Virus record (IMG/VR): IMGVR_UViG_3300033553_000148
Location: 1-38,102 of that record
Strand: one strand, 5' to 3'
DNA: 38,102 bases
DNA from: a virus
The notes under the pieces were generated by a model, which did no database searches, was not told the DNA's origin, and was given only the letters and a program-made list of their open reading frames with translations. Below, piece by piece: positions 10,151 through 35,400 of the stretch. The stretch's first letter is position 1. Each line of letters opens with the position of its first letter. The position numbers were made by a program, and so were the translations under genes.

Positions 10151-10873
10151 TTAACGATTGTTTTGTTGAGTTACCTTTAGCTTAGTAGGCTCGTCAGTGT
10201 TTCTAATAGAAAAGTATTGCTTCATCTTTGCTTCTTCCTTTTGCATTTCAACTGAGATAGGTTGTAGGTTGGCTAGCCCTAGAGTAATAGCACCATCGTA
10301 AGCGGCAGCAATAACGAAGCCACGATGCAATAAAGGAGCCACACCCGGAGACTTAGTTGTGTCTGTAGCAGCAAAGTAACTACCAGAGCGTTGGAAGTAG
10401 AATTTAAGACCAGCAGTAACAGATGCAATTGGTTTTGGATATAGTCTGATTATATTATCAGCGATTTTATCGTAGCCTGTTGGAAGTCCAGCAGTAACTA
10501 GCTCTGTGTCTATTGCTCCTGCAATGTCTGATTCGTTTATTACGTCTAGTTGTCGATAGATACCGCTAGCATCGAGTATATCAATGCGAGTAAGGCTTAA
10601 TATTGAGTTTCCTTGTTCGTCTGTAAGGAATGAATAGTCAGATTGGTTCGCTACTAGGTTAGTTGTTCCGATTGGTAGCTTAGTATGCGAACTATCATCC
10701 CACTGAAACCGTCGGTCAGCCGTAATTGCATAACCAGTAATAGTATCAAGGTGGTTATTTACGGAGTTCACAATACGTGCTGTAGGCCATTGTGTAGCGT
10801 CTACACGCATGAAGTTACGTACTTGCTGGACAATTCCTGTGTTGTTTGTGGCTTCTGAAAATGCTAGTGACAT
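10151..10873 (-). CDS. Head-tail adaptor/connector protein (240 aa)
   Basis: A 240-residue protein with a helical N-terminus (IVQQVRNFMRVDATQWPTAR and VNNHLDTITGYA) and a mixed beta region containing RLYPKPIASVTAGLKFYFQR, then a helical end (VEMQKEEAKMKQYFSIRN). This order and length resemble the adaptor or DNA-stabilising connector proteins that bind under the portal in tailed phages. It sits directly after the capsid and decoration genes and before the tail protein, the expected place. The start codon follows AATTAAAATAAT with no Shine-Dalgarno sequence. Confidence 0.65.
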   Translation of the reverse strand: MSLAFSEATNNTGIVQQVRNFMRVDATQWPTARIVNSVNNHLDTITGYAITADRRFQWDDSSHTKLPIGTTNLVANQSDYSFLTDEQGNSILSLTRIDILDASGIYRQLDVINESDIAGAIDTELVTAGLPTGYDKIADNIIRLYPKPIASVTAGLKFYFQRSGSYFAATDTTKSPGVAPLLHRGFVIAAAYDGAITLGLANLQPISVEMQKEEAKMKQYFSIRNTDEPTKLKVTQQNNR

Positions 10874-31301: not shown

Positions 31302-31577
31302 ATGAGCACTTACCACTTGAACGACTTTGATTCCGAAAAAAGACCACCTCAATCAGTTTCTTTTTACGAAAAAGTTGAGGACGGAACAGATGACGGGGGA
31401 ACGACTATTGAAGAAATGCTACGAGTATCTATTGCTCGACTTTCAGAGCTAAACTCACGCTTTGGTTGTCGTGAGAACTCTGTAGCAATTACTAAAATGC
31501 AGGAAGCCTTAATGTGGCTTGAAGAACGAACAAAAGACCGAGTTAAAAGAGGGGTAGAAGGAAAACACGTAGCTTAA
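31302..31577 (+). CDS. Acb2-like cyclic-nucleotide sponge, candidate anti-CBASS/anti-Thoeris protein (91 aa)
   Basis: A 91-residue helical protein. Residues 55-86 read GCRENSVAITKMQEALMWLE, then ERTKDRVKRGVEGKH. The RExSxAxTKxxEAxMW core is, as I recall it, the conserved face of the Acb2 family (DUF7681), small hexameric proteins that soak up cyclic di- and trinucleotide signals and so disarm CBASS and Thoeris type defences. The helical region before it (MLRVSIARLSELNSRF) and the total length fit. It stands alone with its own promoter. The family call is from memory of the motif; binding is not shown here. Confidence 0.65.
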   Translation: MSTYHLNDFDSEKRPPQSVSFYEKVEDGTDDGGTTIEEMLRVSIARLSELNSRFGCRENSVAITKMQEALMWLEERTKDRVKRGVEGKHVA

Positions 31578-32066: not shown

Positions 32067-32372
32067 ATGTTCAAAACATTCATGATTGCATTGCTTGTGG
32101 TGGTGCTAATGGGTGTAGCATTAGAGACTAAATTTAACTCTGATGCGGAGGTAGTTAAAATTGATAAAGAAGTACAAGAAGAGATGCCAGTGGAAAAGAA
32201 GGATAATATTGATAAGGCTAAAGAAGAAATGGAACGGATTAGCCAAGAGCTAGACTCAGAAGAGTCAAAGATTTTAGAGGAGAAGGCTCAACTAGAAGCC
32301 GAGTACAAAGCAAAACAAGCAGAGAAAGATACCCGTCTTGAAAAGATTACAGAGATTAGACTGTCTTTTTAA
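32067..32372 (+). CDS. Membrane-anchored coiled-coil half of the lysin (101 aa, zero frame)
   Basis: A 101-residue zero-frame product: a signal-anchor or signal-peptide-like start (MFKTFMIALLVVVLMGVALE), then a long Lys/Glu coiled coil (residues 40-95). It ends LSF at TTT TAA. In the -1 frame the coding runs straight on into a lytic transglycosylase with no start codon of its own, so the two are probably halves of one exported or membrane-tethered lysin. If only the zero frame is made, this is a spanin-like coiled-coil membrane protein. Confidence 0.65.
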   Translation: MFKTFMIALLVVVLMGVALETKFNSDAEVVKIDKEVQEEMPVEKKDNIDKAKEEMERISQELDSEESKILEEKAQLEAEYKAKQAEKDTRLEKITEIRLSF

Positions 32373-32449
32373 TTAGCCCCAGAGCAGAACGATTAGCAGA
32401 CGCTATTGTTCAAACTGAGTCACAAGGAAAGTGTCACAGTAACGGGGCT
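32364..32449 (+). promoter_or_regulatory. Candidate -1 frameshift site with downstream stem
   Basis: Zero-frame codons TCT TTT TAA (32364-32372) contain five T in a row. A tRNA on TTT before the stop can slip back one base and still pair TTT. Downstream AGCCCC (32375-32380) pairs with GGGGCT (32444-32449), and the loop holds a hairpin of ACTGAGTCAC (32414-32423) with GTGTCACAGT (32431-32440), 8 of 10 pairs. Confidence 0.5.
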
Positions 32450-32731
32450 TCGGGTGAGTATGGTTGTTTCCAGTTTATGCCTCAAACGTGGGCATACTGG
32501 TCAAAATTAGTCTTAGGCTATGTTGCATCACAAACGCCAGTAAATGAGCGCTACGTGGCTCTCAGGAAGCTACAGAAGCATCTAGATGACGGATATAGTG
32601 AGTCACAAGTTGCACTTATTTGGAATCAAGGAAATGCCAGTAATTGTAAGGCAGGGGTGAATAGTAAAGGCGTAGCTTATGACTCATGTGCTTACGTAAA
32701 GAAAGTAATGGGGCATCTTGCAATGAGATAG
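32366..32731 (+). CDS. Lytic transglycosylase domain of the lysin, -1 frame (about 121 aa)
   Basis: The -1 frame is open from just after TAG 32357-32359 to 32731 and reads LISPRAERLADAIVQTESQG, then KCHSNGASGEYGCFQFMPQT, then VALIWNQGNAS and SCAYVKKVMGHL. Glu in TESQGK is the expected catalytic acid, and GEYGCFQFMPQTW is the goose-lysozyme/SLT-type motif GxxGLMQxMPxTW. The first in-frame ATG (32477) would lose the catalytic Glu, and no GTG or TTG precedes it. Expression therefore needs a -1 shift from the upstream frame, or the assembly has lost or gained a T. Confidence 0.75.
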   Translation, partial: FLISPRAERLADAIVQTESQGKCHSNGASGEYGCFQFMPQTWAYWSKLVLGYVASQTPVNERYVALRKLQKHLDDGYSESQVALIWNQGNASNCKAGVNSKGVAYDSCAYVKKVMGHLAMR

Positions 32732-32735
32732 CTTG

Positions 32736-32820
32736 TGGTATACTAAAAAAGCACTTCTCAGTGCATAACAAACTCTCAGTGCCGTACAGAGTAGACAGCC
32801 CGTAACAGGGCTGTTTTCTT
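32736..32820 (+). ncRNA. Candidate small RNA with own promoter and terminator
   Basis: TTGCAA (32718-32723), 15 bases, then TGG-TATACT (32736-32744) predicts a start at about 32751. The RNA begins with a GCACT (32751-32755) / AGTGC (32760-32764) hairpin and ends at ACAGCCC (32795-32801) / GGGCTGT (32808-32814) followed by TTTCTT. About 65-70 bases, no ORF. The terminator also ends the lysin transcript. Confidence 0.6.
32795..32820 (+). terminator. Rho-independent terminator after the lysin and small RNA
   Basis: A perfect 7-bp stem ACAGCCC/GGGCTGT with a six-base loop, followed by TTTCTT on the plus strand. It ends the rightward early/lysis transcription before the convergence zone. Confidence 0.8.
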
Positions 32821-33479: not shown

Positions 33480-34199
33480 CTAGAACTTACTCTTTTTACA
33501 GAGTTGTCCCCTTAATAAGACAATCAACTTAGGAAGTATGTTTGATATTTGTTTAAGCATACTCACTTTAGTATTATAGATAGTAGCTCTCTTTGCGTAG
33601 GCTTGTTTCAAATAAGGAGCAATGTATCTCAAAGCACCTAGATTCTCGGTATAGCGTATATATTGATAACCATACTTCCCGTCTTCTGGTCTACTGCCAT
33701 GCACAATGTCTTTGTCCCAGTTAGGGATATTCAAGAATGATGTCACATTCACACCTAAGTAGGTCTGTATTAAATTATCATGTGAGTGCATCACTTCGTG
33801 GTATAGGGTTCCTAAAGAGTTAGCCATCCTTGTATCAAACCGACAATACTGTACTTGATAGCCGTTGTACTTACTAGAATAGTTAGTTCCCCATATCTGC
33901 CGACCATCTCTTGGAGCTGACTTCCAATTCTTTTTATGGATAAGAAATACTACATGGTCTGTTCCTTCCCCTGAATATCTTTTATAAATATCGTCTGTTA
34001 TTGACTGCATGTATGTGTGCTTGATTCGCACATCTCCGTCACTATCTATCTCAGTAGGGTAGTCTGAAAAGTCTCTTTCTTCTACAAAGAACACAGGGGT
34101 TATATCAGCGTTTTCATAATACAAATCAATAAACTGACGCTCTAGTTCAATCATTTCATCGGTACTTATGAGTTTGTCTTTTAATACTAGTAGTTTCAT
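33480..34199 (-). CDS. Zinc metallopeptidase of the late lysis module (239 aa)
   Basis: A 239-residue protein with a zinc-protease helix TLYHEVMHSHDN at about residues 130-141 (HExxH, then Asp three residues on). Around it are DHVVFLIHKKNW, GRQIWGTNYSSKYNGYQVQY and a basic end (LLRGQLCKKSKF). No signal peptide is seen. It overlaps the 89-aa gene by four bases and ends just before the late terminator, in a block with two small membrane proteins, where an endolysin is expected. It could be a cell-wall or protein-cleaving lysin; the substrate is unknown and the fold is not a common endolysin type. Confidence 0.65.
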   Translation of the reverse strand: MKLLVLKDKLISTDEMIELERQFIDLYYENADITPVFFVEERDFSDYPTEIDSDGDVRIKHTYMQSITDDIYKRYSGEGTDHVVFLIHKKNWKSAPRDGRQIWGTNYSSKYNGYQVQYCRFDTRMANSLGTLYHEVMHSHDNLIQTYLGVNVTSFLNIPNWDKDIVHGSRPEDGKYGYQYIRYTENLGALRYIAPYLKQAYAKRATIYNTKVSMLKQISNILPKLIVLLRGQLCKKSKF

Positions 34200-34468: not shown

Positions 34469-34648
34469 CTAGTAAGTTTGCTTCGGATTTATTCTGAAAT
34501 AGATAGCAAGGGCTGCCACTACACTGTTAATTAAAACCATTGCATCTGGTGCGACATAGACAGATACTATAGGTGCGACGTTTATAATATAACCAGTAAG
34601 AACCATCCAGTTAGTGCGACTCATCAATGCATTTATGATTGTTTCCAT
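34469..34648 (-). CDS. Holin-like membrane protein (59 aa)
   Basis: Taken from ATG 34648 (METIINALMSRTNWMVLTGY), since TATAAT lies 9 bases before it (34658-34663); the longer frame from 34717 overlaps the LamG gene and begins inside it. It has two hydrophobic stretches (VLTGYIINVAPIVSVYV and AMVLINSVVAALAIYFRINP). Two-helix, about 60-residue proteins beside a lysin are typical phage holins, which open the membrane at a set time. No specific family is assigned. Confidence 0.6.
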   Translation of the reverse strand: METIINALMSRTNWMVLTGYIINVAPIVSVYVAPDAMVLINSVVAALAIYFRINPKQTY

Positions 34649-34674
34649 ATACCTATAATTATACACTATCAACA

Positions 34675-35400
34675 TCACATAAAAGCTAGGAAGCCGGAGT
34701 TGATAGCAGAGGAACATGTGGACGGTGTTTCTGCTTCAAAAGTGGGGGTATTAACTGCTGTAAGAGTGTAAGCGTTCCCTGAAGCATCCGTGTATACGTT
34801 GTCCAAAGAGTATTCAGCACGCATCCCTGATTCTGCGGCTCCAAATACTGTACATTTATTGTCTGCTATCTGTGCTTGAGTGCGTACTGTACTCCATACT
34901 CTGAATAGAGACATGTTCCCGGTTGAGTAGTACATAAATGAGCCGTTGTTGTATGTGCCTCCAATTAAACTGTTGACGGCTTTTCCTGCCCCTCCTGTGA
35001 GGTTCATTGTTGCTGTCGCTACTTGCACACCGTCAAGATACAAGATTCCGTTACTAGCACCTGAATTACCGTTTTTTGTACATGCAATGTGATACCACTG
35101 ACCAGTGTTGAGCGTTATTGTATAGCTGGCAAGTCTTGTCTCAGTCCCCCATGTGTGTTGGTAAAAACGAAGATAGTAAACCCCTCCAACATTTTCATAC
35201 CAAAGGTGAACACCTTGATTAGTCCACCCAACTGTGCAGATTCCGTATATCGTCCCTGTTGCTGGAAGACTGTCAAACTTAAACCAACCCTCGATGCTTA
35301 TAGTAGCTAGTTGGGCGATACCAAACGTGTGGCTGGTTACTGTTGCGTACTCAGAACTAGCCGTCTCAACGTGCATTGATTGTGTAAGACCGTATGCCAT
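34675..35400 (-). CDS. LamG/concanavalin-like fibre-tip protein (241 aa)
   Basis: A 241-residue, all-beta protein of the LamG/concanavalin fold: ATISIEGWFKFDSLPATGTI, then GVHLWYENVGGVYYLRFYQH, then LNTGQWYHIACTKNGNSGAS, LYLDGVQVATATMNLTGGAG and MSLFRVWSTVRTQAQIADN. The W-Y-H-(I/V)-A and L-D-G segments are typical of the laminin-G superfamily, which binds sugars. It lies one base after the large fibre gene, so it is likely the receptor-binding tip or accessory protein of that fibre. Sugar binding is inference. Confidence 0.8.
   Translation of the reverse strand: MAYGLTQSMHVETASSEYATVTSHTFGIAQLATISIEGWFKFDSLPATGTIYGICTVGWTNQGVHLWYENVGGVYYLRFYQHTWGTETRLASYTITLNTGQWYHIACTKNGNSGASNGILYLDGVQVATATMNLTGGAGKAVNSLIGGTYNNGSFMYYSTGNMSLFRVWSTVRTQAQIADNKCTVFGAAESGMRAEYSLDNVYTDASGNAYTLTAVNTPTFEAETPSTCSSAINSGFLAFM

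Follow-up and report, generated by a model that had tools for sequence, protein, structure and literature searches.

A phage membrane anchor and a lytic transglycosylase encoded in two reading frames and probably joined by programmed −1 ribosomal frameshifting

Control of phage lysis is usually explained through holin timing, SAR release or internal translation starts. Endolysin genes that give two products by internal in-frame starts include CTP1L (PMC4777826), phi2638A (PMC12203907) and Ms6 LysA (PMC3111421). The lysin of the Lactococcus phage phi-vML3, for which we rely on secondary accounts, is encoded by two genes that overlap (Shearman 1994, cited in PMC3111421 and PMC10885494), and the PRFect paper counts lysins with the genes in which a frameshift is known and cites, among others, the phi-vML3 study. 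In dsDNA phages, −1 frameshifting is established for tail chaperones and for some capsid and tail proteins (PMC5009743); the portions of this review that were available to us do not mention an endolysin, a holin or a transglycosylase. We found no established frameshift case for a lysis enzyme in the literature.

Frameshifting at short Z_ZZN tetramers was measured in E. coli by Fayet and colleagues. With an IS3 pseudoknot, A_AAG was followed by U_UUC and then by U_UUU, and active tetramers gave 0.26–5.6% −1 shift; U_UUA was a few-fold above background in E. coli (PMC4066793). U_UUC and U_UUU tetramers occur in elements of the IS1 and IS3 families (PMC4066793).

The locus described here lies in an IMG/VR virus record (IMGVR_UViG_3300033553_000148), of which the whole stretch of 38,102 nt was analyzed and is called the window below. 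A membrane-anchored coiled-coil protein is followed there, in the −1 frame, by a lytic transglycosylase (LT) domain. As in IS1/IS3 elements (PMC4066793), the site is U_UUU or U_UUC, an RNA structure lies about 5 nt away and the −1 ORF forms a C-terminal extension, but the product is a membrane-anchored phage wall enzyme rather than a transposase and the stimulator is a long-range helix with a span of about 50–110 nt. The locus would share with lambda gpG/gpGT and the other dsDNA phage capsid and tail frameshifts (PMC5009743) a ratio of short protein to fusion set from one gene; here, however, the gene and product are others, the site is a tetramer and the product is non-structural. CTP1L, phi2638A, Ms6 LysA and phi-vML3 likewise obtain two products from one lysin locus, but they do so by internal initiation or overlapping genes, and internal-start endolysins share the C-terminus, whereas here the N-terminal anchor would be shared and the enzyme would be the extension. 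We propose, with a probability of roughly 87%, that both ORFs belong to a single recoded gene in which programmed −1 frameshifting, which is inferred, yields much anchor protein and a smaller amount of a 221-aa fusion. The features of the window on which this proposal rests, and those of its surroundings, are:

32067–32372, plus strand: anchor and coiled-coil ORF in the zero frame, 101 aa, from translation
32364–32369, plus strand: shift site TCT TTT (zero frame), with TCT TT invariant and variable flanks in nine lineages
32366–32369, plus strand: tetramer U_UUU, of the class described in PMC4066793
32370–32372, plus strand: zero-frame stop TAA, directly 3' of the shift site
32375–32380, plus strand: 5' strand of the downstream helix, AGCCCC, after a 5-nt spacer following TTT
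32444–32449, plus strand: 3' strand of the downstream helix, GGGGCU, with inner hairpins between the two strands
32369–32731, plus strand: SLT-like LT domain in the −1 frame, with 120 post-shift codons and TAG
32417–32419, plus strand: catalytic Glu codon GAG (in TESQGK), at the end of helix 1
32793–32816, plus strand: hairpin resembling an intrinsic terminator, 3' of the LT, by consensus match only
33480–34199, minus strand: HExxH metalloprotease-like protein, a convergent neighbor
34469–34717, minus strand: small membrane protein whose position and hydrophobicity are holin-like

By direct reading, the anchor ORF ends in CTG TCT TTT TAA with a T5 run at 32366–32370, and the open stretch of the −1 frame runs from 32360 to a stop codon at 32729–32731, with the product ...VFLISPRAERLADAIVQTESQGK... 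by translation. The earliest ATG, GTG or TTG of the −1 frame is the ATG at 32477, 3' of the catalytic Glu codon; an ATT at 32372–32374 overlaps the anchor stop TAA. These readings bear out three claims of the first-pass annotation of this DNA: that the anchor frame stops at TTT TAA with the LT in the −1 frame, that the catalytic Glu precedes any ATG, GTG or TTG (32417–32419 against 32477), and that a T5 run, a stop and an AGCCCC/GGGGCT stem, which is present in the minimum free energy (MFE) fold, lie at the switch. When adjacent long ORFs in a +1 or −1 frame relation were compared within the window, anchor and LT were the only such pair with a second start well past the first stop (35 codons); in the other genuine pairs about one codon at most separates the two, and one extra entry was a spurious overlap. 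Gene callers miss or truncate an LT of this kind, and standard starts give an 84-aa fragment without the catalytic Glu in the window.

The LT matched PF01464 in a profile search (E=4.6e-6, 26.6 bits against a cut-off of 21.3). An AF2 model of the domain reached a pLDDT of 94.9, with helix 1 at residues 6–20 and the Glu at 19, and the top Foldseek matches of the LT were Slt-type (probability 1.0, TMq about 0.65, E only 2e-3). By family and predicted fold, the −1 frame product is therefore an SLT-like lytic transglycosylase; activity on peptidoglycan is inferred. It has in common with Slt70/Slt (PF01464; Rpf-like PF06737) a Glu that closes helix 1, the GEYG..QF..TW motif and the fold match, but as a minimal domain it comprises about 120 aa, has conserved cysteines and would be joined by the shift to an N-terminal TM-coiled-coil. 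The AF2 boundary of the LT domain coincides with the switch point, so the switch sits at a domain boundary. The anchor has a hydrophobic segment at about residues 5–20, followed by a long charged helix or coiled coil, and ends in LSF; AF2 modeled helices at 2–25 and 42–100, with confidence only in the second. In a check for SAR-type features, for which a weakly hydrophobic, Gly/Ala-rich signal-anchor with later release from the membrane is expected, the window anchor was strongly hydrophobic (hydropathy peak 2.44, KD) and not Gly-rich; the anchors of L152 and L159 are Gly-rich (relatives are given by L number).

Motif and alignment searches of IMG/VR for relatives yielded the same arrangement of a TM-coiled-coil ORF and a −1-frame LT in 12 contigs from different metagenomes, including the window (the others being L159, L152, L157, L163, L161, L166, L170, L103, L137, L139 and L142); the search of homologues that the first-pass annotation had suggested thus found the split in 11 further contigs. 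The 12 contigs represent about nine lineages, with LT identities to the window of roughly 40–66%; L103 and L104 are identical and come from two metagenomes. Homologous anchors are present in the split-type relatives. Among the 12 coiled-coil-type members, anchor and LT never share a continuous ORF, and no LT domain opens with a start codon, so that homologues with a separate LT start, which would have refuted the frameshift idea, were not met among them. Several members carry an ATG or GTG at scattered positions in helix 1, none common to the whole family, and a protein begun there would lack some of this helix, whose end bears the catalytic Glu. In other relatives (L115, L141 and L143), the LT is part of the same polypeptide as a membrane segment or signal peptide.

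All sequences compared are metagenomic, and the terminase resembles those of Bacteroidota phages at 33–38% only. Single-sequence LT searches of IMG/VR and of INPHARED phages found no relative, no SLT match was present in the 41 records searched of exonuclease-neighbor phages, and nothing was found in 380 sampled genomes from the phylum of L082. The LT match in L082 itself, in a thymidylate-kinase-like gene, was rejected as false. The L103 record has a second weak LT-like match (G048:C1:43213-43356; E 1.8e-4) in a 178-aa open frame. A second break interrupts the −1 LT frame of L163 (7927-8284) farther downstream, near VALKRF, and reflects either an assembly indel or a decayed copy.

The zero frame at the switch reads NNN TCT TTN in nine of nine lineages:

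Window: CTG TCT TTT TAA
L103: TTG TCT TTT CTA TAG
L137: GTT TCT TTA TAA
L139: GTG TCT TTC GGG
L142: ATC TCT TTT TAG
L152 and L161: ACG TCT TTT CAA TAA
L170: AAT TCT TTT CAG TAA
L159: TCG TCT TTT TAA

Elsewhere in the split-type genes, TCT accounts for 16 of 107 Ser codons, and its use in all nine lineages by chance would have a probability of (16/107)^9 = 4e-8 if the lineages were independent. Because the base preceding TCT is variable, the lineages keep U_UUN but no heptamer, and the site belongs to the Z_ZZN class in all nine lineages (U_UUU in the window, U_UUC in L139, U_UUA in L137). The first-pass annotation was right that no X-XXY-YYZ heptamer is present, but it missed this known class of tetramer. 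The zero-frame stop follows TTN after zero or one codon in eight of the nine lineages; L139 lacks a local stop, and its zero frame continues for about ten codons past the site. Since Z_ZZN shifting has been measured in E. coli, there is no need to assume P-site slippage at a stop, which had been left open as an explanation, and L139 offers no nearby stop at which it could occur. Three points count against shifting at this site: tetramers are weak without a strong stimulator, L137 has one of the weaker motifs (U_UUA), and we saw no internal Shine-Dalgarno-like stimulator that is conserved.

A candidate stimulator is the RNA structure that follows the site. In the window, the AGCCCC/GGGGCU stem is part of the MFE fold (−26.4 kcal/mol; z −2.77 against dinucleotide shuffles). 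We compared the first 84 nt after the shift with synonymous-codon shuffles, which preserve the LT protein, and obtained z-scores of −3.4 (−3.37) for the window, −3.5 for L159, −4.2 for L152, −2.8 for L170 and −2.1 for L161. Scores for L103, L137, L139 and L142 lay between −0.8 and −1.5, and the weakness of L103, L139 and L142 over these 84 nt counts against the proposal; in L139 and L142, the helix spans about 90–110 nt and is missed by a stretch of this length. Over the nine lineages combined, the fold is stronger than in the shuffles (Fisher p=5e-7), and in the window, L152 and L157 the post-shift stretch is the most extreme of the gene. The base helix begins in every lineage 4–6 nt after TTN (10–12 nt after the T of TCT), and its strands differ while pairing is kept (AGCCCC/GGGGCU, GCCCC/GGGGC, GCCCUA/UGGGGC, CUCCCGA/UCGGGAG, GCCCCG/CGGGGC and UACCCCC/GGGGGUA). 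Because the 3' strand slides between lineages, we set aside column-wise covariation counts and instead searched for helices in the lineages and in their synonymous shuffles, a test that gave a milder result than the energy test (Fisher p=1.4e-4). The CCC of the 5' strand is partly set by conserved Ser-Pro codons, which makes the energy test the stronger evidence. Independence of the nine lineages is only approximate, and the combined p-values, including that for TCT, are therefore upper-end statements of strength.

An open downstream ORF lacking a start where its domain begins, a Z_ZZN motif, a close conserved structure and conservation in 12 contigs meet the sequence-based criteria for −1 frameshifting. 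In the mechanism that we infer, most ribosomes would remain in the zero frame and terminate at TAA, giving the 101-aa protein of membrane anchor and coiled coil. Where the helix follows C U_UUU at 5 nt, some would slip back by one base on UUU, the TTT-reading tRNA re-pairing in the −1 frame onto 32366–32368 (A-site slippage). These ribosomes would make a 221-aa protein of membrane anchor, coiled-coil stalk and LT domain, which by its inferred topology would tether the LT outside the membrane, facing the peptidoglycan. Surplus anchor-only protein may hetero-oligomerize with the fusion through the common stalk, also an inference, as are the efficiency and timing of the shift and the function of its products. 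The sequence supports a product ratio set by frameshifting; that the shift is regulated and serves lysis timing, as had been suggested, is unproven.

The strongest rival, which we weighed seriously for the split type and consider improbable, is that no fusion is made and the LT is translated separately by termination-reinitiation at the overlapping stop, from AUU in the window and from AUA in several relatives. Several members do carry such codons just after the junction, with ATA at the same codon in L103, L152, L157, L161 and L166 (overlap TAATT or ATAG). Relatives in which the LT is linked to a holin-like gene also have ATA (L107, L114 and L117) or ATT (L111 and L171) at the expected signal-peptide start, where L115 and L143 have ATG. 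The codon corresponding to the ATT of the window is, however, GTC in L139, GCT in L142, GTA in L170 and ATC in L137, and in L139 reinitiation would lack a local stop; L139, L142 and L170 in particular argue against this reading. Initiation at AUU or AUA would also leave the invariant TCT TT and the frameshift-spaced helix unexplained, and the separate LT would have neither signal nor anchor, in contrast to homologues that carry a membrane segment at the N-terminus.

Slippage during transcription of the T run could instead produce a mixed mRNA population in which the frame is restored, as the T5 run of the window (shared by L159 and L142) would favor. Slippage of this type is known at longer runs, the run is only T4 in L103, L152, L161, L170 and others and T3 in L137 and L139, and a polymerase would not need a stable RNA helix 5 nt away; we regard this explanation as very unlikely. 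To the same slight degree, the anchor could be the functional unit, for example as an i-spanin-like protein, with the LT frame a decaying or unexpressed remnant. The anchor does resemble Rz-like spanins, but only weakly (PHROG E 0.05–0.07, with no significant Rz-like i-spanin profile match), and we rejected a spanin reading that rests on non-significant matches. The LT frame, on the other hand, keeps its features in diverged phages: the Glu is invariant across 23 LT relatives, most cysteines are kept and the model is of high confidence. Differences after the junction fall at LT codon positions 1, 2 and 3 as 1, 1 and 8 between L152 and L157 (8 of 10 at the third position) and as 2, 1 and 9 between L152 and L163, and this third-position pattern between close relatives indicates that the LT frame is selected as protein. 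An assembly or sequencing error, such as a miscounted T that hides one continuous ORF, could not have been ruled out from a lone contig and might find support in the additional frame break of L163, but it is the least credible explanation and in substance refuted, since the frame relation is equal in 12 contigs of nine lineages at T3, T4 or T5, L103 and L104 are identical, and site and structure are conserved. Variation of the run from T3 to T5 across lineages means that neither a miscounted homopolymer nor polymerase slippage, both of which the first-pass annotation had left open, explains the split.

Apart from the −1 frameshifting that we favor for the split type, non-standard junctions of two other types occur among LT homologues. 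An in-frame TGA parts the upstream TM segment from the LT in L138 (~1085–1105), L140 (~2964–2990) and L160 (~10248–10270), in contexts such as CTA TGA AGA GAT CAY and GAT TGA AGG GGT CAG with a hairpin soon after, and L141 is laid out alike but lacks the stop. Against synonymous shuffles, the fold was strong in L140 (z −4.4) and not significant in L138 and L160. Programmed UGA readthrough is possible at these three junctions; an alternative genetic code was rejected, as the L140 phage has TGA as an ordinary stop elsewhere. In the second type, the LT follows a holin-like gene and has a signal-peptide-like segment (L107 ~2900, L114 and L117 ~2890, L111 ~2900 and, on the minus strand, L171 near 7940 of the reversed locus), and the codons at the expected starts suggest that these genes start at AUA or AUU. 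We raise only tentatively, as an idea that may well fail, that the join of membrane part and LT has come repeatedly under non-standard translation by independent means, namely −1 shift (12 contigs), UGA (L138, L140 and L160) and AUA/AUU (L107, L111, L114, L117 and L171), as convergent throttling of a lysis enzyme.

The HExxH protein, which adjoins the LT in the window (HEVMHSHD), L157 (NHEIMHSFD) and L159 (WHEISHSFD), has no Pfam or PHROG assignment and may be a lysis-module protease. The holin-like protein at 34469–34717 has no family match in Pfam or PHROG; similar small ORFs adjoin the protease-like gene in L157 and L159. In L159, tail genes, the small holin-like protein, the HExxH protease-like protein and anchor::LT follow one another on one strand, and anchor::LT of the window and of L157 faces convergent protease-like and holin-like genes. 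We presume, by position only, that these genes form a lysis module, and this neighborhood makes a role of anchor::LT in host lysis likely, by inference. Upstream, the 91-aa ORF at 31302–31577 (plus strand) matches an Acb2/Tad1 hairpin domain just below the cut-off (PF24729, E 7e-6) as well as PHROG 2428 and is a possible anti-defense sponge protein.

If the frameshift reading is true, ribosomal frameshifting would be added as a control point of lysis, with the LT made as a minor tethered extension of an abundant anchor. Translation itself would then set the amount of tethered LT in a family of uncultured phages.
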